Of a stretch of DNA of 64,000 nucleotides, positions 7,363-36,560 are shown one piece after another. Made by a program: the position numbers and the translations under genes. Each line of letters starts with the position of its first letter. Positions within the stretch are counted from its first letter, which is position 1. The notes beneath the pieces were generated by a model. It made no database searches. It was not told where the DNA came from and saw nothing but the letters and a program-made list of their open reading frames with translations. Source of the DNA: Methylotenera sp. (GTDB lineage: Bacteria; Pseudomonadota; Gammaproteobacteria; Burkholderiales; Methylophilaceae); NCBI RefSeq assembly GCF_029946165.1, contig NZ_JAQSDZ010000021.1, forward strand, positions 66,782 to 130,781. Reading direction: 5' to 3'.

Positions 7363-9264
7363 ATGTCCGTAGAGACAACCCAAAAAGAAACTCATCCCAA
7401 AGAATCCATGGCTTTTCAGGCGGAAGTGAAACAATTGCTTCAATTGATGATTCACTCCTTATATAGCAACAAAGAGATTGTGTTGCGTGAATTGATTTCT
7501 AACGCGTCCGATGCCGCGGATAAATTGCGTTTTGAAGCCGTGAGTAATGGCGGACTTTATGATGGTGATAGCGATTTAAAGATTCGTATTGCTTTCGATA
7601 AAGACGCGCGCACCGTGACCATTAATGATAACGGCATTGGTATGAGCCGTGATGAGGTGATTGCGAACATTGGTACGATTGCAAAATCTGGCACTAAAGA
7701 ATTTTTTAATGCACTTTCTGGCGACCAAGCTAAAGATGCGAATTTGATTGGTCAATTTGGTGTGGGCTTTTATTCAGCTTTTATTATTGCAAATAAAGTG
7801 ACCTTAACAACACGTCGCGCTGGCGCCACAACAGCGGTACGTTGGGAATCAGCTGGGGAGGGCGACTTCACATTAGAAGATGCAGATAAAGCGACTCGTG
7901 GTACTGAAATTGTATTGCACTTACGTGAGGGCGAAGACGAGTTTCTAAGTGATTGGAAGCTAAAAACCATTATTCGCAAGTATTCAGACCACATTACTTT
8001 ACCAATCGTGATGAAAAAATCCGAATGGAAAGAGGGCGCTGAGATAGCAACCGATGAAGATGAAACGGTGAATAAAGCGTCAGCATTATGGGCGCGCAGC
8101 AAAAACGACATTACAGAAGAAGAGTATCAAGAGTTCTATAAACACGTTTCTCATGACTTTGAAAATCCACTGGCTTATACACATAGCCGCGTAGAAGGTA
8201 AACAAGAGTACATTTCACTGCTCTATATTCCAGGCAAAGCGCCGTTTGATTTGTACGACCGAGATCGTCGCCACGGCATTAAGTTATACGTAAAACGCGT
8301 CTTCATTATGGAAGATGCCGAAAAGTTAATGCCGCAGTATTTGCGTTTTGTCCGTGGTGTGATTGATACTTCTGATTTGCCATTAAACGTTTCACGTGAG
8401 ATTTTGCAGTCGAGCCGCGATGTGGATGCGATTAAAGCGGGTTCGACTAAGAAAATCTTGGGTGTGCTTGAAGATATGGCTGAGAATAAAACAGAAGATT
8501 ACACAAAATTCTACGCAGAGTTTGGCCGTGTATTGAAAGAAGGTCCAGGCGAAGATTATGCTAATAAAGACAAAATTGCTGGGTTATTAAGATTCGCTTC
8601 AACCAAGGCGGATACTGACGTGCAAGAAGTCTCTTTCAAAGACTATATCGCGCGTATGCAGCCTGAGCAAGATGTGATTTATTACATTACGGCAGAAAGT
8701 TTCGCTGCCGCGCAACACAGCCCACATTTAGAAATCTTCCGTAAAAAAGGCATTGAAGTATTACTGATGTCTGATCGTGTTGATGAGTGGCTACTCGGTA
8801 GTTTGACTGAGTTTGACGGTAAAAAACTGCAATCTATCGCCAAAGGTGATTTAGACTTAGGCAAACTAGAATCAGACACGGAAAAAGAGATTCAAAAACA
8901 AATTGAAGAAGAAGCCAAAACCTTAGTTGAGAAAATTAAAAATTCATTAGGCGATCAAGTGAAAGATGTACGTGTGACACACCGCTTAACTGATTCACCT
9001 GCTTGCTTGGTGAGCGATGCGAATGATTTATCGGGTAATTTGGCACGTATGTTAAAAGCCGCAGGACAAAATACGCCAGACGCTAAACCTATCTTAGAAA
9101 TCAACCCAGCGCATAAACTTGTGAAACGTCTTGAGGCAGAGAATGCTGATGCGGTTTTTAGTGACTTAGCGTTCGTGTTATTTGACCAAGCTTTGTTGGC
9201 AGAAGGCGGAACATTGAATGATCCAGCAAGCTTTGTGAAACGTATGAACAGTCTAATTAGCTAA
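7363..9264 (+). CDS. htpG: Chaperone HtpG (bacterial Hsp90)
   Basis: Cytosolic ATP-dependent Hsp90 chaperone acting with DnaK in late folding of client proteins. The 633-residue length is normal. The N-terminal GHKL ATPase shows [17 protein letters not shown] (catalytic Glu about 43), DNGIGM (89-94), GTIAKSGT and [11 protein letters not shown] (130-140). The middle domain contains [11 protein letters not shown] and the LNVSREILQ motif, followed by the C-terminal dimerisation domain; the eukaryotic MEEVD tail is absent, as usual. The start is supported by AAGGAG upstream of the ATG. It is a single-gene transcription unit with a sigma-32 promoter and a strong terminator. Confidence 0.99.
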
Positions 9265-9290
9265 TAACCGATAAGTAATTTATCTAATAA

Positions 9291-9323
9291 AAACCCGCCT
9301 AACGTAAGTTAGGCGGGTTTTTT
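9291..9323 (+). terminator. Rho-independent terminator of htpG
   Basis: A 13-bp stem AAACCCGCCTAAC (9291-9303) pairs with 9308-9320 around loop GTAA and runs into T residues. Confidence 0.92.
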
Positions 9324-9403
9324 ATTCTTTCTTACTTTTTTTATTTATTTGTATCAATACGTGAAGAATTAGATAAATTTTAACTTTAGTTGTTGACTAT
9401 GTA

Positions 9404-9422
9404 AATAAGAATCATTATCATT
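9404..9422 (+). promoter_or_regulatory. Fur-like box before small protein/S4 paralogue locus
   Basis: AATAAGAATCATTATCATT matches AATGATAATNATTATCATT at 16 of 18 informative positions. It lies 31 bases before the start codon of the next gene. Zur boxes belong to the same superfamily, so a zinc response cannot be excluded from sequence alone. Confidence 0.7.
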
Positions 9423-9453
9423 TGTATGTGATATTAAGCAACGGGAAATATAG

Positions 9454-9768
9454 ATGGCAAATTGTAATAAACAGCAAAATAACCTTCAGCAACGTTATGG
9501 TGCGGGCGTATATGACCCAGATTTGCCAAATGCAAATGCGGTGATGGCGGCAATCTGCTGTGTGAGTTCGCAATATATTGTTCATCCTTCTGCGGATTTG
9601 GCGATGTTGGTTGCAGATCTGGCACACAAACTGACTGCGCCACAATACGCAGAATCTACTTTGGTGACAGAGGTGGCAAAACGACTTGTGAATCAATGGG
9701 CGGAGATAGTTCGTGAGCAACAAGCTAGCCTTTTAGATGCCACACCTTTGAGCGAATCTTTTCATTAG
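9454..9768 (+). CDS. Hypothetical protein, probably iron-regulated, 104 aa
   Basis: I do not recognise the family. The protein looks soluble: polar start (MANCNKQQNNLQQRYG), a YDPDLPNANAVMAAICCVSSQY segment with adjacent cysteines, then amphipathic helices (DLAMLVADLAHKL, VAKRLVNQWAEIV). No signal peptide or membrane span is seen. It begins 31 bases after a Fur-like box and ends 58 bases before the S4 paralogue, with no terminator between them, so the two are probably cotranscribed. The SD is weak (ACGGGA about 10 bases upstream). An overlapping minus-strand ORF of similar length was judged a shadow. Being first in the operon suggests a job in metal starvation, but that is inference. Confidence 0.65.
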   Translation: MANCNKQQNNLQQRYGAGVYDPDLPNANAVMAAICCVSSQYIVHPSADLAMLVADLAHKLTAPQYAESTLVTEVAKRLVNQWAEIVREQQASLLDATPLSESFH

Positions 9769-9826
9769 TTTTATAGAAGATTAACGATTGCAAACAAAGT
9801 TTTAGCTAAAAATACAGAGAGATAAT

Positions 9827-10444
9827 ATGTCAAGATTAACAGGCCCAAGATTAAAAATTATGCGTTCATTAGGGGTTGATTTACCAGGCTTATCCCGTAA
9901 AACCATAGAAGCAAGACCTACACCGCCTGGTCAGCATGGCATGAAAGCAACACGTCGCCGTAAGTCTGACTATGGTGTGAAATTGCAAGAAAAACAAAAG
10001 TTGCGTTTCAACTATGGCTTAACTGAAAGACAAATGCGCCGCTTGATTATTGAGGCGCGTAAGGGTAGCGAACCGACTGGTGATAATTTTTTACAGTTAT
10101 TAGAGCGCCGCTTAGATAACGTTATTTTTAGAGCAGGATTTGCTCCATCAGTGATTTCGGCGCGTCAATTAGTTACACATGGTCATGTAATTTTGAATGG
10201 GCGGTCGGCGAATATTCCGTCAATGCGCGTGAAAATATCGGATGAAGTTACACTTAAAGTGACTAGTTTAAAGATACCTCTAGTGGCTGAAACTCTAGCC
10301 AAACCAGTATTAGATCGCCCCGATTGGTTGCAATGGGATGAAACCGCTAAGCGCATTAAAGTGGCTCACTTACCAGATGCAGACCAAGTACCTTTTCCGA
10401 TTGATGTTCAGCAAGTTGTTGAATATTACTCAAACCGAATTTAA
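9827..10444 (+). CDS. rpsD: 30S ribosomal protein S4 paralogue, cysteine-free
   Basis: S4 binds 16S rRNA early in 30S assembly. This 205-residue protein has the N-terminal domain (SRLTGPRLKIMR, PGQHG at 34-38, SDYGVKLQEKQKLRFNYGLTERQ) and the S4 RNA-binding domain (about 94-155, LERRLDNVIFRAGFAPSVISARQLV). It is remote from any ribosomal operon (no rpsM, rpsK, rpoA or rplQ nearby), whereas the main proteobacterial rpsD normally sits beside rpoA, so I infer a second copy. It contains no cysteine, so it cannot carry the N-terminal four-cysteine metal site found in C+ versions of S4. It sits downstream of a Fur-like box, suggesting induction when metal is scarce. If no rpsD exists elsewhere in the genome, this would be the sole S4. 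Confidence 0.88.
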   Translation: MSRLTGPRLKIMRSLGVDLPGLSRKTIEARPTPPGQHGMKATRRRKSDYGVKLQEKQKLRFNYGLTERQMRRLIIEARKGSEPTGDNFLQLLERRLDNVIFRAGFAPSVISARQLVTHGHVILNGRSANIPSMRVKISDEVTLKVTSLKIPLVAETLAKPVLDRPDWLQWDETAKRIKVAHLPDADQVPFPIDVQQVVEYYSNRI

Positions 10445-10503
10445 GCCTGACTAACACAGGCTTAGATATTAGGTTGATGCGAATCAATCTAGAAAGCTGT
10501 AAT

Positions 10504-30123: not shown

Positions 30124-32520
30124 CTAATCAATATTTAATTGAGTTTCTTTAAATATCGAACTATTGTCCCAAAGACTTATCCACTTAACAAAGTCACTGG
30201 CAGGCATGGGTTTAGACATATAGTAACCTTGCCCAGAATCGCAACCCATGCTTCTTAGTAGTTTCCATACTATTAGGTTTTCAATGCCTTCTGCCACGAC
30301 TTTAAGTCCTAAGTTATGCCCTAAATCAATCGTTGATTGAACAATTTTCTTATCGCTTTCATCTTGTTCCATTTTTAAAATAAACGATTTATCAATTTTC
30401 AATTCATTCACGGGTAAACGCTTTAAATATGCCAACGATGAATAACCTGTTCCAAAGTCATCAATCGACAATTTGATATTCATGCCAGAGAGTTTGTCCA
30501 GTGTCGCCAAGGCTCGCACTGGGTCATCCATAATGCTACTTTCAGTAATTTCTAGCGTTAAAGAACTGTGATCAATGTGATATGTTTTGAATATGGCATC
30601 AATTTTTTCTGGTAAGTCTTGGTCGATTAAATCTCTTGTAGAGATATTAACGGCAATTGGGTAATGCAAATTCAGGGCATTCCACATTTGACTATATTTT
30701 GCCGCTTCGTTAAGCATCCACTGGCTAATAAGTTGTATGTATCCAGTTTGTTCGGCAAAAGGGATGAATTGATCTGGAAAAATAAAACCTTTTTCGGGAT
30801 GTTTCCACCTGACCAATGCTTCTAAAGACGTTAGTTTGCTAGTGGCGATATCAATCTTAGGTTGAACATACATAATGAGTTGATTATCAGTAATCGCGTT
30901 TTTCAGCTCAGACGCCATCGATAAATTAGTGCTGCTATTTAAATCATAACTTTTATCAAAAACAGTGGTTCCAACTTTATTTGCTTTAGCTGCATACATC
31001 GCTATTTCTGCTCTTGTAAGAAGCTGAGCTTCATTATTAGCATGGGTAGGGAAGGTTGCGATGCCAATACTCGCACTGACATCTACGGATTGCATGTTAA
31101 TTATGATTGGATTTTCAAAACTTCTAGAGATTTCATCAGCTAAACTCAAGCCAATTTCAGAAGTGGTATCTGGAAGAATCATTGCATACTGAATACCTGC
31201 AATGCGAGCAACAAAATCTTGCTCTCTAGCCGTCATTTTTATTTTTTCTGCAATTACACGCAGTATCTCGTCACCAGAATCATGACCTAAAATATTGTTA
31301 ATTTGCTTGAATCGATTTAAGTTTAGAACAAATATAGTCAATTGCTGCTTAGTGAGTTTAGCCTCCTCTAGTGCTTTATTCAGTGTCAGCATGAATGAGG
31401 TTCTATTGGGTAAGTGGGTTAGTTCATCATAGTAAGCGAGCCTTGAGATACTTTTTTCTCTACTTGAGATCGCTTCGCTCATACTGCTAAAACTGCGACT
31501 AAGCTCACCTAGTTCGTCGGCTCTATCTGACGTGATGTTGATTGCGTAGTTACCTTTTTCCAAACTCTTGGCAACTTGAACTAGATCCGTAATTGGCTTG
31601 GTAATATATTTAGATACATAATAAATACTGATTGCAAAAACGAAGGCACCAAAGATTGTCAAAATTAACAATGTCAGCTGTAGATTTTTATAAGGCGCAG
31701 TTGCTTCGTCAATTGAACGTTGCAAAACAGCGTAAAGCACCTGATTAGGGCTCTTCAATATGGACACATATCGAGAGCCAAAAGAAACCCCATCAATATG
31801 GATTTCTCGATTCATTGAATTTGTATCAAGGACGTTCGAAGGCTGAGTCATGATGTTGTTGAATGAGGAGCTATTTAAAGTCGAGGCGATGAGTGACCAA
31901 TTTGCATTATTTGATTTACTCACAAACGTGACTTCAAGATTGCTTAACTTATGTAGCTTCTTAGCTAAAGTATTATCTATCTTAAACCCCATGATTACCC
32001 AGCCTATGGTTAAGGGGGCTTTAACTGGCACGGCAACTAGCTGATAAGGTTCGTTGTTGAAAATGGCAAAACTTTTAAAATCACCTGACTCTTGAGCAGT
32101 TTCTACCAGCACAGTTACTGCAGATTTAACAACCTCATAAATTTTTTCGCCCTCAACTATTTGATGATCATCAGCCGTTGGGTAAAAGTTGGATGAAGTG
32201 TAAAACACTGAAATGTTAGCGCCAAGTCGCTTCTGTTGGTTATTAAGCGCGGATAAAATTGTTTCTTCATCATTCGAAGCAATGGCTTGCCTGAATCCAT
32301 AATCTATGGCGAGAATTCGCGCGCCTTGAGTTAAGCTCTCTGAGTTCTGATTTAACAGGCTCAAGAATATCTTTTCACCAAGCGCCAGTTGTTCGCTCAC
32401 TGATGCACGCGCGTTCTTTTCAATACTAAATCTAATGGCGATAGATCCAATAATCTGGATGCTAAGAATGAGTACAAGAAAAATGAAAGTGATTCTTGTA
32501 TTTAGACTTTTAAATTTCAT
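30124..32520 (-). CDS. Membrane c-di-GMP protein: sensor-HAMP-degenerate GGDEF-EAL
   Basis: A 798-residue inner-membrane signalling protein. Order: transmembrane helix about 9-30; periplasmic sensor about 31-280, Cache-like in length; second transmembrane helix about 281-303; HAMP about 304-356; GGDEF about 360-520; EAL about 540-790. The GGDEF signature is replaced by AGIQY (about 442-446), so cyclase activity is not expected, though an REQD I-site-like motif precedes it. The EAL domain keeps LEALVRW (about 568), an ITESSIMDD-type region, DDFGTGYSSLAYLK and AEGIE, so it should hydrolyse c-di-GMP. It is the last gene of a three-gene operon (35-base gap) after a cupredoxin and a truncated haemoglobin, which could supply its periplasmic input. 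Confidence 0.94.
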   Translation of the reverse strand: MKFKSLNTRITFIFLVLILSIQIIGSIAIRFSIEKNARASVSEQLALGEKIFLSLLNQNSESLTQGARILAIDYGFRQAIASNDEETILSALNNQQKRLGANISVFYTSSNFYPTADDHQIVEGEKIYEVVKSAVTVLVETAQESGDFKSFAIFNNEPYQLVAVPVKAPLTIGWVIMGFKIDNTLAKKLHKLSNLEVTFVSKSNNANWSLIASTLNSSSFNNIMTQPSNVLDTNSMNREIHIDGVSFGSRYVSILKSPNQVLYAVLQRSIDEATAPYKNLQLTLLILTIFGAFVFAISIYYVSKYITKPITDLVQVAKSLEKGNYAINITSDRADELGELSRSFSSMSEAISSREKSISRLAYYDELTHLPNRTSFMLTLNKALEEAKLTKQQLTIFVLNLNRFKQINNILGHDSGDEILRVIAEKIKMTAREQDFVARIAGIQYAMILPDTTSEIGLSLADEISRSFENPIIINMQSVDVSASIGIATFPTHANNEAQLLTRAEIAMYAAKANKVGTTVFDKSYDLNSSTNLSMASELKNAITDNQLIMYVQPKIDIATSKLTSLEALVRWKHPEKGFIFPDQFIPFAEQTGYIQLISQWMLNEAAKYSQMWNALNLHYPIAVNISTRDLIDQDLPEKIDAIFKTYHIDHSSLTLEITESSIMDDPVRALATLDKLSGMNIKLSIDDFGTGYSSLAYLKRLPVNELKIDKSFILKMEQDESDKKIVQSTIDLGHNLGLKVVAEGIENLIVWKLLRSMGCDSGQGYYMSKPMPASDFVKWISLWDNSSIFKETQLNID

Positions 32521-32555
32521 TGAGATCTATGTGTGTATTAATGAAAGATTAATAG

Positions 32556-33179
32556 TTAAATGGAAACTTTAATGTCAATTGCCATTTTGATCGCCTCAGT
32601 ATCTTTGCTTGAAATTGCCTTATCAACTGTCACGTTCTCTTTTTTTAATGCGTAATGCCAAACTTTTAATAGATACTCTCCGTTTGGAATGTCACTAAAT
32701 TTGACTTTACCGCTAGTATCAGTTTTGGCAAAATATGGGGTGTCTACAATGTAAACAAAGGCCAGCATTTGGTCGTGGATATTGCAACCAAGTACGACAG
32801 TCCCAGCTTTATCAAACAATACGGGAGTGCTTGGAACACCAGAATAAAGCTTTAATTCAAATGATTTTGCGGGAGAGAATGAATAAACCTGATGTCTTAC
32901 AGAGTCTTTATTAGGAAAAATAATGCTGCTGCCAGTTTGTATGACAGTGATTAGCGGGATAAAGGTTTTATTTTTTTGAACAACTGCAACTTGTTTTTTT
33001 AAAATTGGTGTAGTTTTATCTTTTGCTTCTAAATAAACCACAGCATTTTCTATGCTGACACCTGCAAGATCATTCACTTGCACTTCAAATTCTGCAGCGT
33101 TCACATTTAAATTCAACATGCCTAATATTATGAAAAAATTAAGAAGGATCTGGGGAGTTGCATACTTGAAGGAAGTCAT
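32556..33179 (-). CDS. Cupredoxin-like periplasmic protein (methylamine-utilization type)
   Basis: A 207-residue protein with a signal peptide (cleavage near NVNA-AEF, about 28). The N-terminal half is a blue-copper-like domain: a His at about 96 (VRHQVYSFSP) and the cluster GCNIHDQM (Cys 132, His 135, Met 138) form a plausible type 1 copper site. A C-terminal beta domain (DTSGKVKFSDIPNGEYLLKVWHYAL) resembles carboxypeptidase-regulatory-like folds. Such proteins are often annotated methylamine utilization protein, but no mau genes are nearby, so that label is not evidence of function. It lies 11 bases after the haemoglobin gene and 35 before the EAL gene. Confidence 0.85.
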   Translation of the reverse strand: MTSFKYATPQILLNFFIILGMLNLNVNAAEFEVQVNDLAGVSIENAVVYLEAKDKTTPILKKQVAVVQKNKTFIPLITVIQTGSSIIFPNKDSVRHQVYSFSPAKSFELKLYSGVPSTPVLFDKAGTVVLGCNIHDQMLAFVYIVDTPYFAKTDTSGKVKFSDIPNGEYLLKVWHYALKKENVTVDKAISSKDTEAIKMAIDIKVSI

Positions 33180-33190
33180 AAAATTTTAGC

Positions 33191-33685
33191 CTAAATTAAT
33201 TCTTTTGCCGTGACAATATCGCGCTTCATGGGCGCCAAGATTTTAAGAAGCTCATTTTTTTCTCGGGTTTTCGTGTGTTTGCTTAGAGACTCTCTAAACA
33301 CTGCAACAAATATTTCGAATTCAGCTGTTGAAATTTTTGCATCCTTGTGTGAATTAATCATTGTTTCGCCATCATATTCACAGCCCCCTCCAGTTAACAT
33401 GCAAATCTGACTCACGACACTCTCTTTAAGTTTCGGCAGTTTCAAGTCTTTAAATGATCTCGCGGTTTTAGGATTGCTTGAGACTTCATCGATCGTCTCT
33501 GATACCACAATTTTAATGACGGTTAGGCCGCCCATTCTGTTAAACAGATTATCCTCAGTATTAACCTTTGCTTCTGAGTTATAGATTTTTTCTGCATTCG
33601 ATATTGTTGTCAATTGAGAGCATCCCAAAAGGCTGTTTAATATGCATACAACCATCACAACCGTTTTAAATGTTTTCAGTTTCAT
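33191..33685 (-). CDS. Truncated haemoglobin (group 1) lipoprotein
   Basis: A 164-residue protein beginning, from the ATG at 33685, with a lipoprotein signal peptide and lipobox LLGC (Cys 22); the ATG at 33709 would add 8 residues. The mature part matches group 1 truncated haemoglobins: LFNRMGGLTVIKIVV, a QICMLTGGGCEYDG turn, MINSHKDAKIS with the likely proximal haem histidine, and FEIFVAVFRESL. Two cysteines flank the glycine turn. A lipid-anchored periplasmic globin is unusual. It is the first gene of the operon with the cupredoxin and EAL protein and is divergent from the DUF3034 gene. Confidence 0.82.
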   Translation of the reverse strand: MKLKTFKTVVMVVCILNSLLGCSQLTTISNAEKIYNSEAKVNTEDNLFNRMGGLTVIKIVVSETIDEVSSNPKTARSFKDLKLPKLKESVVSQICMLTGGGCEYDGETMINSHKDAKISTAEFEIFVAVFRESLSKHTKTREKNELLKILAPMKRDIVTAKELI

Positions 33686-33882
33686 TATTAACCACAAAAT
33701 ATTCAGCAATAATTGATTATAGTTTTTAAAGCTTTAATTTAAGTGGTGAATAAGGCTAAGAATCATTTGTTAATCTGTCATTCAATCTATCACGAGCACT
33801 TGTAGTATTTGATGATGAAGAATGCTATAAGACCAATTTCTTATACTTCAGATACATTTAAAATCTAGATAGTTCTCAGCAC

Positions 33883-34737
33883 ATGAATAAAATCATTATT
33901 GTATGCATTATTAGTTTTTTATATGCAGCTCCAAGCTTCGCTGGTGATCGCTTACTTGCCACAGGCGGGGTGACTCAAATTGAAGGTTCTGCGGGCGGCG
34001 GCTTGACGCCATGGGCGCTGATTAGCGGTTATGGCACAGATTCACAAATTGGCGCATCAGCCTTTTATACTGAGCTAAGAACTAATGGCGGTTTTGACTT
34101 AAGTAGTGGTGGTGTGAGTATTGGTTTATACAATCGAGTGGAAGTCTCGTTAAGCCAACAGAAGTTTGGTTTAAGCAATACTGTCCCTCGTGAATCTATC
34201 AGGCTTGATACACTAGGCGTAAAAGTTAGAGTTTTAGGGGATGCAGTTTATGATCAAGATAACTGGGTGCCGCAAATTGCTGCAGGTATACACATTAAGC
34301 ACAATGAAGATTTTTCATTTGTGCCTAAGCTACTTGGCGCAAAAAAATCATCTAGCGTTGATGTATATGTGACAGCAACAAAACTTTATTTAGCAGCAAT
34401 TAAAGGCCGGAACGTACTATTGAATGCGACGCTGCTTGCAACTGAAGCCAATCAGTTTGGTATATTAGGTTTTGGTGGAGATAAGCACGACGGTTATCGT
34501 TTAGAACCCGCTGTTTCTGTAGCGTTAATGTTGACGGATAATGTTTTACTAGGGACGGAATACAGAGCTAAGCCAAACAATTTAAACATTTATAAAGAAG
34601 AAGATGCCAAGGATTTATTTGTCACTTGGTTTCCTGTGAGAAATTTTTCAGTCACCGCTGCTTATGTGGATTTAGGTAATATTGCTGATAAAAACAATCA
34701 ACGCGCATGGTATTTATCTGGGCAAATATCCTATTAA
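33883..34737 (+). CDS. DUF3034 family outer-membrane-like protein
   Basis: A 284-residue protein of DUF3034. The signal peptide is MNKIIIVCIISFLYAAPSFA (1-20). The mature chain starts DRLLATGGVTQIEGSAGGGLTPWA and alternates short beta-strand and turn segments (VSIGLYNRVEVSLSQQKFG, VSVALMLTDNVLLGTEYRAKP, FSVTAAYVDLGNI, AWYLSGQISY), ending in an aromatic residue like an outer-membrane beta-barrel. The function is unknown. It is divergently transcribed from the haemoglobin/cupredoxin/EAL operon across 197 bases; I recall these families recurring together in betaproteobacteria, which supports a shared role. Confidence 0.85.
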   Translation: MNKIIIVCIISFLYAAPSFAGDRLLATGGVTQIEGSAGGGLTPWALISGYGTDSQIGASAFYTELRTNGGFDLSSGGVSIGLYNRVEVSLSQQKFGLSNTVPRESIRLDTLGVKVRVLGDAVYDQDNWVPQIAAGIHIKHNEDFSFVPKLLGAKKSSSVDVYVTATKLYLAAIKGRNVLLNATLLATEANQFGILGFGGDKHDGYRLEPAVSVALMLTDNVLLGTEYRAKPNNLNIYKEEDAKDLFVTWFPVRNFSVTAAYVDLGNIADKNNQRAWYLSGQISY

Positions 34738-34769: not shown

Positions 34770-36560
34770 TTAGAAACCTAGCCAACGCGCCCCTTGGTAA
34801 AACACAAAACTTACCACCCAAGCTAGCCCTAGTGACCAAGTAATTGACAGCCACATAAATGCGCTACTTTTAGCTTCACTTCTGAGTGTGGCAATAGTAG
34901 ATAAGCAAGGGGTATATATCAGCGTGAACAACATAAAACTCATCGCCTGAACCCAATCAATTTGCGTTGCCATGTGCACCATTAGTGTGTCACCCTGCAT
35001 CCCGTATATCACGGCTAGCGCGCCAACAACAATCTCTTTAGCTACAAAGCCAAATATTAAAGCAATCGCTAGCTGATTGTTAATACCAAGTGGATCAAGT
35101 ATCGGCGCAAATAAAGCGCCAATTTGGCCAGCATAAGTGCCAGCGCTCGCTGGAGCAACATTGCTCGGGAAGTTAGTTAACGCCCAAACTAGCACAACAC
35201 CAATTACAATAAACTTACTTGCGCGTCCCAAAAAGTGTTTTACCTCATGCCAGCCCCTTAATATGATTTGGCGTAATGTCGGAAAGCGATAAGGCGGTAA
35301 TTCAAGAATAAAAGGTTCGGTGTTTTTATACTGACCTTGAAACAAGATTGCAGTTAGAAACATTGTTAAAAAGCTCATCACGTAAAGGGTGAATAAGACC
35401 ATTGGCGCGTGTTTAGCCGTAAACAGGGCGGTGATCATGAAAATAAATACTTGTAACCGAGCTGAACATAATGACAATGGAATAACTAACATAGTCAGCA
35501 AACGCATCGGACGAGAGCGCATGATGCGAGTACCCATCAGCGCTGGTACATTACAACCAAAGCCCATGAGCATCATGACAAAGCCGCGACCATCTAAGCC
35601 CATTTTAGCCATGAGTGAATCCATGAGGAAAGCGGCACGTGATAGATAGCCGCTATCTTCGACCATAGACATGACTAAAAAGAATAAAACGATGATGGGG
35701 ACAAAGGCTGCAACGGTGGCTACGCCGTTATAAATACCGTCTAACATCAAGCCGCTAAACCATGCGGGGCTGGACGTGAATATGGGCTCCAATAAGCCTG
35801 ACCTTAATAAGCTCAAAGCCCATGCAAGTCCATCTTGTAGCGGCTTGCCCACAGTGAATATAAACTGAAATAACACAAACATCGCAGCAAAGAATATTGG
35901 TAAGCCAAACCATTTATGCAGCAAAATCTTATCGATTTTATCGGTAGTATTATTAGTAAAGGTCGTTGGAATTTGAACATGGTGTTGAATCAAACCTTCC
36001 ATTTCATGTTCGATTTGGTGGTCCTCTTGTAGAAGCTGGCTTATCACTTGGGGGTCGGTAGCTGTTTGATTCAGATTGATAATTTGCGTGGCAGCCTGCA
36101 AAGCTTTTGGTAAACCGTCACCATATTTTGCGCTTATGGATAACACGGGTATATGTAAATCCTTGGCTAGACTTTCAGTATCAATCGTAATCCCAGATTG
36201 CTTGGCTTCATCTGCCATGTTCAAGGCTAGCACAGAAGGAATATTAAGTTTTTTAATCTGTAATACTAATGAAAGTTGACGATCTATCTGTGAGCTATTT
36301 AATAAAACAATGACTAGGTCTACAGCATTGTTTGATAGAAAACGTCTGACTACTTGTTCGTCTTCTGAAAAGCCATGTAAATCATATATGCCTGGCAAGT
36401 CGATTAGTTCGGCAATATGACCACCAATCAAAATCTTTGCACTCATTAAATCAACCGTAATTCCCGGCCAATTGCCAACTCTTGCAGAGGCGCCGCTAAT
36501 ACGATTGAACAGGGTTGATTTCCCTGTGTTGGGCATGCCTAATAGTGCAATTCGTTTCAT
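34770..36560 (-). CDS. feoB: Ferrous iron transporter FeoB
   Basis: Inner-membrane GTP-dependent Fe(II) importer. The 596 residues make it a short FeoB (E. coli is 773). The cytosolic G domain has G1 GMPNTGKST (8-16), G3 DLPG, G4 NMAD and G5 SAK. The membrane part starts at about 220 with paired Gate motifs, including SRAAFLMDSLMAKMGLDGRGF and the cysteine in GFGCNVPALMGTR. The C-terminus ends soon after the last helix, and no FeoC-like domain is present. It follows feoA by 60 bases and shares its Fur-controlled promoter. Confidence 0.97.
   Translation of the reverse strand: MKRIALLGMPNTGKSTLFNRISGASARVGNWPGITVDLMSAKILIGGHIAELIDLPGIYDLHGFSEDEQVVRRFLSNNAVDLVIVLLNSSQIDRQLSLVLQIKKLNIPSVLALNMADEAKQSGITIDTESLAKDLHIPVLSISAKYGDGLPKALQAATQIINLNQTATDPQVISQLLQEDHQIEHEMEGLIQHHVQIPTTFTNNTTDKIDKILLHKWFGLPIFFAAMFVLFQFIFTVGKPLQDGLAWALSLLRSGLLEPIFTSSPAWFSGLMLDGIYNGVATVAAFVPIIVLFFLVMSMVEDSGYLSRAAFLMDSLMAKMGLDGRGFVMMLMGFGCNVPALMGTRIMRSRPMRLLTMLVIPLSLCSARLQVFIFMITALFTAKHAPMVLFTLYVMSFLTMFLTAILFQGQYKNTEPFILELPPYRFPTLRQIILRGWHEVKHFLGRASKFIVIGVVLVWALTNFPSNVAPASAGTYAGQIGALFAPILDPLGINNQLAIALIFGFVAKEIVVGALAVIYGMQGDTLMVHMATQIDWVQAMSFMLFTLIYTPCLSTIATLRSEAKSSAFMWLSITWSLGLAWVVSFVFYQGARWLGF

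Follow-up and report, generated by a model that had tools for sequence, protein, structure and literature searches.

We analysed a four-gene locus of Methylotenera sp. that encodes an outer-membrane barrel of the DUF3034 family, a truncated haemoglobin, an exported cupredoxin and an inner-membrane receptor with an EAL domain. The locus occupies positions 30124 to 34737 of a 64,000-nucleotide stretch of contig NZ_JAQSDZ010000021.1 (assembly GCF_029946165.1), which we call the window. We consider it very probable that the four families constitute a conserved functional unit, and this unit is built of two half-modules, i.e., barrel plus globin and cupredoxin plus Cache receptor. Our proposal for its role is more tentative and has, in our estimate, just under an even chance of being correct: the unit would be an envelope sensing module in which the state of haem and copper is passed to the receptor and, in this organism, onwards via the breakdown of cyclic di-guanosine monophosphate (c-di-GMP). 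The features of the locus are as follows (aa, amino acids).

30124..32520, minus strand: inner-membrane receptor with dCache_3, HAMP, degenerate GGDEF and EAL domains, predicted c-di-GMP phosphodiesterase (798 aa; Pfam, EAL conservation)
32556..33179, minus strand: exported two-domain cupredoxin (207 aa; profile, model, ligand conservation)
33191..33685, minus strand: group-1 truncated haemoglobin (TrHbN-2-like), predicted lipoprotein (Pfam Bac_globin, PDB relatives, conserved His)
33686..33882, no strand: intergenic region separating the divergent transcription units
33883..34737, plus strand: DUF3034 outer-membrane 12-stranded beta-barrel, the partner of the globin (284 aa; Pfam, model)

The open reading frame (ORF) list confirmed the four genes. 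As the first-pass annotation of this DNA had described, three minus-strand genes are spaced 35 and 11 bases apart, with DUF3034 divergent on the plus strand. Translation of the globin from the ATG at 33685 yields 164 aa; an alternative TTG start at 33709 (ORF 33191-33709) would yield 172 aa.

Conserved linkage of the four families, the check proposed in the first-pass annotation, was found in three samples and in public annotation. The named sample comprised the best 80 of 364 confirmed DUF3034 relatives, found with a DUF3034 alignment, and is thus weighted towards close relatives; five loci in it (L047, L049, L050, L051, L071) also serve as rows of the search profiles, and counts were also made without them. 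The class sample consisted of 369 evenly drawn genomes, 18 of which carried DUF3034 at 19 places, including two in the window's own genome. The phylum sample, evenly drawn and independent of profile building, consisted of 299 genomes, 25 of them with DUF3034; we analysed 22 loci from 21 genomes, leaving out as already studied the places in the window's own genome and in G207, G372 and G464. One phylum locus, L253, probably comes from the same genome as L091 of the named sample. None of the 14 control genomes of the search carried DUF3034.

Within 4 kb of DUF3034, the named sample contained a globin at 78 of 80 loci, a cupredoxin at 53, an EAL protein at 40 and all three at 39; with the profile-row loci excluded, the corresponding values were 73/75 for globin, 48/75 for cupredoxin and 35/75 for EAL. 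The EAL count of at least 40 is a lower bound because three loci (L109, L114, L121) carry the cupredoxin-EAL pair further upstream. A globin was present at all 62 named loci that had both 4-kb flanks. Amongst the 22 phylum loci, we found the globin at 22, the cupredoxin and the EAL model at 16 each and the Cache sensor at 15, and in the class sample a globin lay within approximately 1.5 kb at 13 of the 19 DUF3034 places. Of the neighbour clusters that do not belong to the set, the commonest, extracytoplasmic function (ECF) sigma factors, occurred within 5 kb at only 13 of 80 named loci. Set against this value, globin counts of 78/80, 22/22 and 13/19 place the linkage above chance.

The grouping was kept despite reshuffled gene orders, which points to joint function. 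The globin-cupredoxin-EAL order divergent from DUF3034 is shared by the window and many Burkholderiales, whereas Caballeronia has DUF3034-globin-cupredoxin-EAL, the phylum sample also contained cupredoxin-EAL-DUF3034-globin, and L073 has globin-cupredoxin-EAL-DUF3034. Public annotation of a Caballeronia plasmid lists in a row a "DUF3034 family protein", a "group 1 truncated hemoglobin", a "methylamine utilization protein" and an "EAL domain-containing protein". In the alphaproteobacterium Novosphingobium, the annotated cupredoxin-EAL pair is divergent from DUF3034-globin.

The DUF3034 protein matched its Pfam family (PF11231) at 1.3e-104 (349.7 bits against a cut-off of 25), and the structural model was a 12-stranded outer-membrane barrel with FapF, KdgM and NanC as its nearest structures. 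Alignment A5 of the family comprised the window plus 69 of 79 DUF3034 stretches. At two named loci (L115 and L119, from two Pseudoduganella species), globin and DUF3034 form one ORF with a single signal peptide. No CxxCH motif, as in a Cyc2-type fusion, was present in the fused proteins of these loci; the fused domain is the globin. The first-pass annotation had treated DUF3034 as an outer-membrane-like, divergent neighbour: its location and orientation hold, but it is more than a divergent neighbour, being the closest partner of the globin and fused to it in two species.

The genome of the window carries a second DUF3034-globin pair (L027; G000:C16:12001-31000), with DUF3034 at 9506-10471 and the globin at 8950-9582. 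On one side of this pair stand ECF sigma and ChrR-cupin genes together with one for an alpha/beta hydrolase, and on the other, in a row, genes for CMAS, DUF2878, DUF1295, DUF6134, a lipocalin and a fatty-acid desaturase; we take these surroundings to resemble an RpoE-ChrR cluster for photo-oxidative stress and fatty-acid modification. Separately, another exported-looking protein lies near the cupredoxin at L174, L176, L178, L182 and L191, where DUF3034 is missing, and at L185 besides DUF3034. By eye, these proteins have a signal peptide and C-terminal aromatic residues, and one matches Porin_5; identities were 33% between those of L176 and L191 and 24% between those of L174 and L182. PDB sequence searches with two of them returned nothing useful, and a crude strand score failed to separate controls, so that alternative barrels remain a suggestion.

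The globin matched Pfam Bac_globin at 1.8e-6 (28.6 bits, above the family cut-off of 21). Amongst its best PDB relatives by sequence search were a "Group 1 truncated hemoglobin" (9yg7, 8.2e-10) and Shewanella benthica HbN (8ugz, 5.7e-9); with a profile of 17 globin sequences, 8tls (7.5e-24) and 8ugz (1.6e-22) were recovered. Conservation was counted over 81 domains with E < 1e-10 plus the window, with residue numbers that follow A2 (add 1 for the ATG start). The proximal His (F8), H112, was present in 81/82 sequences, the CD1 Phe, F77, in 79/82, and two Cys (94 and 101) in 82/82 and 80/82, respectively. Haem-pocket positions were mapped from the available text of PMC11904497, together with the alignment of the PDB search. 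B10 (column 64) is Ile, Leu, Met or Val in 77/82 and Tyr in three, E7 (column 85) is Leu, Ile, Val or Phe in 82/82, and E11 (column 89) is Leu, Val, Ile or Phe in 82/82; an apolar pocket at these three positions argues against tight oxygen binding. We predict from these residues that the protein is a haem-binding group-1 truncated haemoglobin of the TrHbN-2-like type.

A lipobox, LLGC, was recognized by eye in the window globin, and the aligned and conserved His bears out the earlier description of a lipid-anchored globin with a plausible proximal His. The companion claim that a lipoprotein globin is unusual proved overstated, such globins being less rare than supposed: a crude export rule applied to 81 DUF3034-linked globins called 25 lipoproteins and 56 Sec-exported proteins, and lipoprotein-like or exported globins were also met without DUF3034. 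At L226 (3081-4997), an exported-looking truncated globin without DUF3034 stands beside an outer-membrane barrel of the TodX/FadL type (Toluene_X). At L228 (G219:C6, 6357-8165), the gene for a 602-aa protein with an internal globin domain adjoins a separate exported-looking globin gene.

No Pfam family scored above cut-off in the 207-aa protein. A profile of 53 cupredoxin sequences matched NirK at 1.5e-7 and amicyanin at 1.4e-3, and structural matches to the model (predicted local distance difference test score 92) support a type-1 cupredoxin fold. H96, C132, H135 and M138 were invariant in 53/53 sequences (in alignment A6, the window stands with 52 of 53 cupredoxin stretches, all but L123). 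The blue-copper-like protein with an intact His-Cys-His-Met set is thus upheld, the fold by profile and model and the ligands by their invariance; the protein is, from sequence and model, a type-1 copper protein with predicted copper binding. In the model, the type-1 copper domain (approximately residues 60-149) is apparently inserted in a transthyretin- or carboxypeptidase-regulatory-like domain (approximately 29-60 and 150-204). The records at like loci name the cupredoxin a "methylamine utilization protein"; no mau family appeared in the Pfam scan of seven window proteins at 29-37 kb, the part of the window that was scanned. On pSymA of the model organism Sinorhizobium meliloti (L275, 4782-5501), a homologue of this cupredoxin family is divergent from SCO, hemA and groL, with soxYZ nearby.

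The receptor matched EAL (1.2e-71), GGDEF (4.8e-37), dCache_3 (4e-15) and HAMP (2.1e-10) in Pfam. Conservation was counted over 53 sensors with frames of more than 700 residues plus the window. E567, R571, N625, E657, D687, D688, K708, E744 and Q764, which we take to be the catalytic set of the EAL domain, were invariant in all 54 sensors. The GGDEF motif reads AGIQY in the window, which does not qualify as a diguanylate cyclase, and is exact in 29/54. Retention of the EAL residues throughout, with the GGDEF motif exact in only 29, indicates that the activity retained is breakdown rather than synthesis, and the EAL site looks active in sequence, i.e., that of a predicted c-di-GMP phosphodiesterase. 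A membrane sensor with degenerate GGDEF and intact EAL had been described in the first-pass annotation, in agreement with these data.

The cupredoxin-receptor half extends beyond EAL outputs. The cupredoxin profile matched in 78 of 369 class-sample genomes, weak matches included, and a sensor/EAL protein like that of the window adjoined the cupredoxin at 22 of the 30 class-sample loci returned. Eight of these 22 sensors, chosen since the EAL profile covered their front part only, were scanned for outputs. Three carried a guanylate-cyclase domain (L174, L175, L177), one a histidine kinase (L176) and four a Ser/Thr kinase (L179, L180, L181, L185). Output-less Cache-like proteins stand by the cupredoxin in Lysobacterales, at L087 by profile (6.5e-7) and, more weakly, at L099 (a CHASE4 match below cut-off), L103 and L112 (both by eye). 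As the cupredoxin is paired with receptors of varied output, it is apparently cognate to an output-swapping Cache receptor, and c-di-GMP is one output among several. The earlier proposal that haem and copper proteins switch c-di-GMP breakdown therefore fits the EAL output of this locus but covers one form of the receptor only. The pairing suggests that cupredoxin and Cache receptor form a general sensing pair, in which the receptor would read a metalloprotein and not a small ligand.

At two loci with cupredoxin, Cache and cyclase genes, an adjoining gene encodes a HAMP membrane protein (L175, 5471-6772; L177, 5155-6453). The L175 protein contains CISCHVG, a CxxCH motif like that of the haem-Cache (DUF3365) family, and haem and cupredoxin may hence recur together; the L177 protein matched HAMP only.

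Linkage, fusion, export signals, conservation of haem and copper ligands, the EAL catalytic set and output exchange were computed directly; we infer that the cofactors are loaded, that globin, cupredoxin and Cache domain touch one another, which way the signal runs and what it is. In the mechanism that we propose, the DUF3034 barrel would lie in the outer membrane and hold the haem globin at its periplasmic face, with the tether varying between a lipid anchor here and a soluble exported protein or a fusion elsewhere. The exported type-1 copper protein would be the periplasmic partner of the inner-membrane dCache-HAMP receptor. Ligand binding or a redox change at the globin haem may then alter the redox or binding state of the copper protein or, alternatively, both may report the same chemistry. 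The copper protein would in turn influence the Cache domain, and c-di-GMP breakdown by the EAL domain would speed up or slow down. The most likely signal is of a redox or nitric oxide (NO) type; oxygen as such is less likely.

A bolder form of this mechanism, which we regard as improbable, is a redox relay for signalling, in which a barrel-docked or barrel-fused globin (a "globin-porin") would exchange either electrons or gaseous ligands with the exterior and pass the change to the blue copper protein and thence to a Cache receptor with exchangeable output. If true, two-membrane signalling would gain a new class of system, and DUF3034 its first function.

Several observations weigh against the sensing module. 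The globin-DUF3034 fusion was limited to 2/80 named loci and 0/22 phylum loci, and a cupredoxin within 4 kb is missing from both fused loci. Six of the 19 class-sample places of DUF3034 had no globin (L131, L139-L142, L143). L139-L142 belong to the divergent members of the DUF3034 family (225-283 bits), and L143 is truncated at a contig end; wider stretches of four globin-less places (L185-L188) still contained none. At the G219 place of DUF3034, a cupredoxin and a kinase-type sensor are present and the nearest globin is approximately 10 kb away. Conversely, of the 22 class-sample places with the best globin matches (E <= 1.6e-29), 12 were within 4 kb of DUF3034 and 10 were not, and the cupredoxin-receptor pair also occurs without a globin; a Comamonas plasmid has cupredoxin and EAL genes but neither DUF3034 nor globin. 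No cupredoxin lay within 4 kb at 25/78 named and 6/22 phylum DUF3034-globin loci, and the globin half must hence also have some role alone. Contact or electron exchange between globin and cupredoxin is, for its part, hypothetical. Finally, amongst 52 genomes of the window's genus, neither nirK (5/12 with DUF3034 vs 10/40 without, p 0.29) nor NnrS (9/12 vs 31/40, p 1.0) was enriched with DUF3034. A link to NO by co-occurrence was accordingly rejected, and the first-pass designation of oxygen, NO or copper as the signal is still no more than a proposal, the haem pocket being apolar and the genus test negative.

The same loci without cupredoxin favour a different account, in which DUF3034 and globin are an enzyme or stress unit that handles periplasmic NO, peroxide or oxygen at the outer membrane, with the cupredoxin-Cache-EAL genes only co-regulated and no signal passing from haem to receptor. 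An ECF sigma factor occurred within 4 kb at 13/80 named loci, with an RskA- or ChrR-like anti-sigma in 12 of those and the cupredoxin missing from 10, and the second copy in this genome sits between the ECF sigma-ChrR pair and the CMAS/DUF1295/desaturase cluster. A periplasmic truncated haemoglobin of cable bacteria has been proposed to reduce oxygen (in the available text of PMC12093952), which makes an enzyme role a serious rival to sensing. This account leaves unexplained why cupredoxin and receptor join the pair (cupredoxin at 53/80 and 16/22 loci) in several gene orders, and we consider it unlikely, if worth serious attention.

We regard as distinctly unlikely a copper sensor in which the cupredoxin would detect copper in the periplasm, the EAL receptor would signal it, and globin and barrel would belong to a copper or iron response. 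The invariant His-Cys-His-Met set (53/53) and the existence of the cupredoxin-receptor pair without globin and DUF3034 agree with such a copper sensor; type-1 copper sites, however, are usually electron carriers rather than copper sensors, and no copper-resistance gene was recognized amongst the printed neighbour clusters, which were not annotated singly or searched systematically. Least probable of all is an outer-membrane redox wire in which globin haem and barrel feed the cupredoxin, with signalling secondary: although a haem-domain-barrel fusion with a blue copper protein shares the Cyc2/rusticyanin layout, and a CxxCH protein occurs at cupredoxin locus L175 (without DUF3034), globin haem is buried and non-covalently held, the barrel is small (12 strands, FapF/KdgM/NanC-like) and the fused loci lack the cupredoxin over 4 kb.

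FNR/DNR-type boxes with up to two mismatches numbered 77 in the window vs 58.2 expected (2 of 100 shuffles reached 77); regulation of the locus by such a box was rejected, the intergenic region holding one match only, with two mismatches, at 33809. Promoter-like matches in the intergenic region, at 21 vs 20.8 expected, were not above chance; the terminator scan gave 2 vs 5.2 expected. Directly after DUF3034, on the opposite strand, the window carries feoB, a ferrous iron transporter gene (34770-36560). FeoB was considered and rejected as a fifth part of the module, an ORF of equal length (596 aa) occurring there in close relatives (L036, L037, L047, L058) but being absent from the remaining printed loci. 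PADLOC gave no defence-system match for the four proteins.

The linkage places DUF3034, a barrel family without assigned function, in a functional context for the first time and documents a natural globin-barrel fusion; it bears on how bacteria sense extracytoplasmic redox or gas chemistry and convert it into changes in c-di-GMP. No description of the module was found in open-access full texts, subscription papers being mostly outside the search; two of these texts mention DUF3034, and none combined DUF3034 with truncated hemoglobin, or truncated hemoglobin with EAL domain and cupredoxin.

Globin-coupled sensors (DgcO, BpeGReg, DosD) are cytoplasmic, and in them globin and enzyme form one polypeptide; here, an exported truncated globin is separate from a dCache receptor, and no frame with a globin plus an EAL or sensor model was present amongst the 80 named, 47 class-sample and 22 phylum loci. 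What the two share is a haem globin tied to c-di-GMP turnover (PMC8846402, in the part available). The available part of that review of c-di-GMP sensing covers globin-coupled enzymes, haem-PAS enzymes and periplasmic disulfide switches, and its main text does not mention copper. In Shewanella benthica HbN (8ugz), a group-1 N-2 globin, B10, E7 and E11 are likewise apolar (PMC11904497, available text). Unlike HbN, the window globin is exported, has two conserved Cys and is tied to an outer-membrane barrel. The cupredoxin has the type-1 copper fold and ligands in common with amicyanin, plastocyanin and the NirK domain. Amicyanin has a short ligand loop, and the CxxHxxM loop of the window cupredoxin is likewise short; unlike all three, the latter seems to sit within a transthyretin-like domain and pairs with Cache receptors. 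The Cyc2 cytochrome-porin with rusticyanin also combines a barrel-fused haem domain with a periplasmic blue copper protein, but in the DUF3034 loci a globin replaces the cytochrome c, the barrel is smaller and a signalling partner is present. The sCache_heme (DUF3365/Tll0287) proteins are NO sensors with haem-bearing Cache domains, and both systems place extracytoplasmic haem with Cache signalling, the haem being covalently held within the Cache domain there and carried by a separate globin here (PMC12889525, in the part available). In YfiBNR/TpbB and in HmsC-HmsD (the latter in the available part of PMC8846402), a periplasmic redox-sensitive protein likewise acts on an inner-membrane c-di-GMP enzyme. 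Domains of these systems (for YfiBNR, YfiR and OmpA-like YfiB) were not detected by Pfam in the four proteins, and the GGDEF domain here is degenerate. YfiBNR also has an outer-membrane part; here, that part is a barrel with a globin, the periplasmic partner is a copper protein and the output is EAL. Overall, the module looks like a member, with an undescribed composition, of a known kind of system, the envelope-partnered c-di-GMP enzymes.

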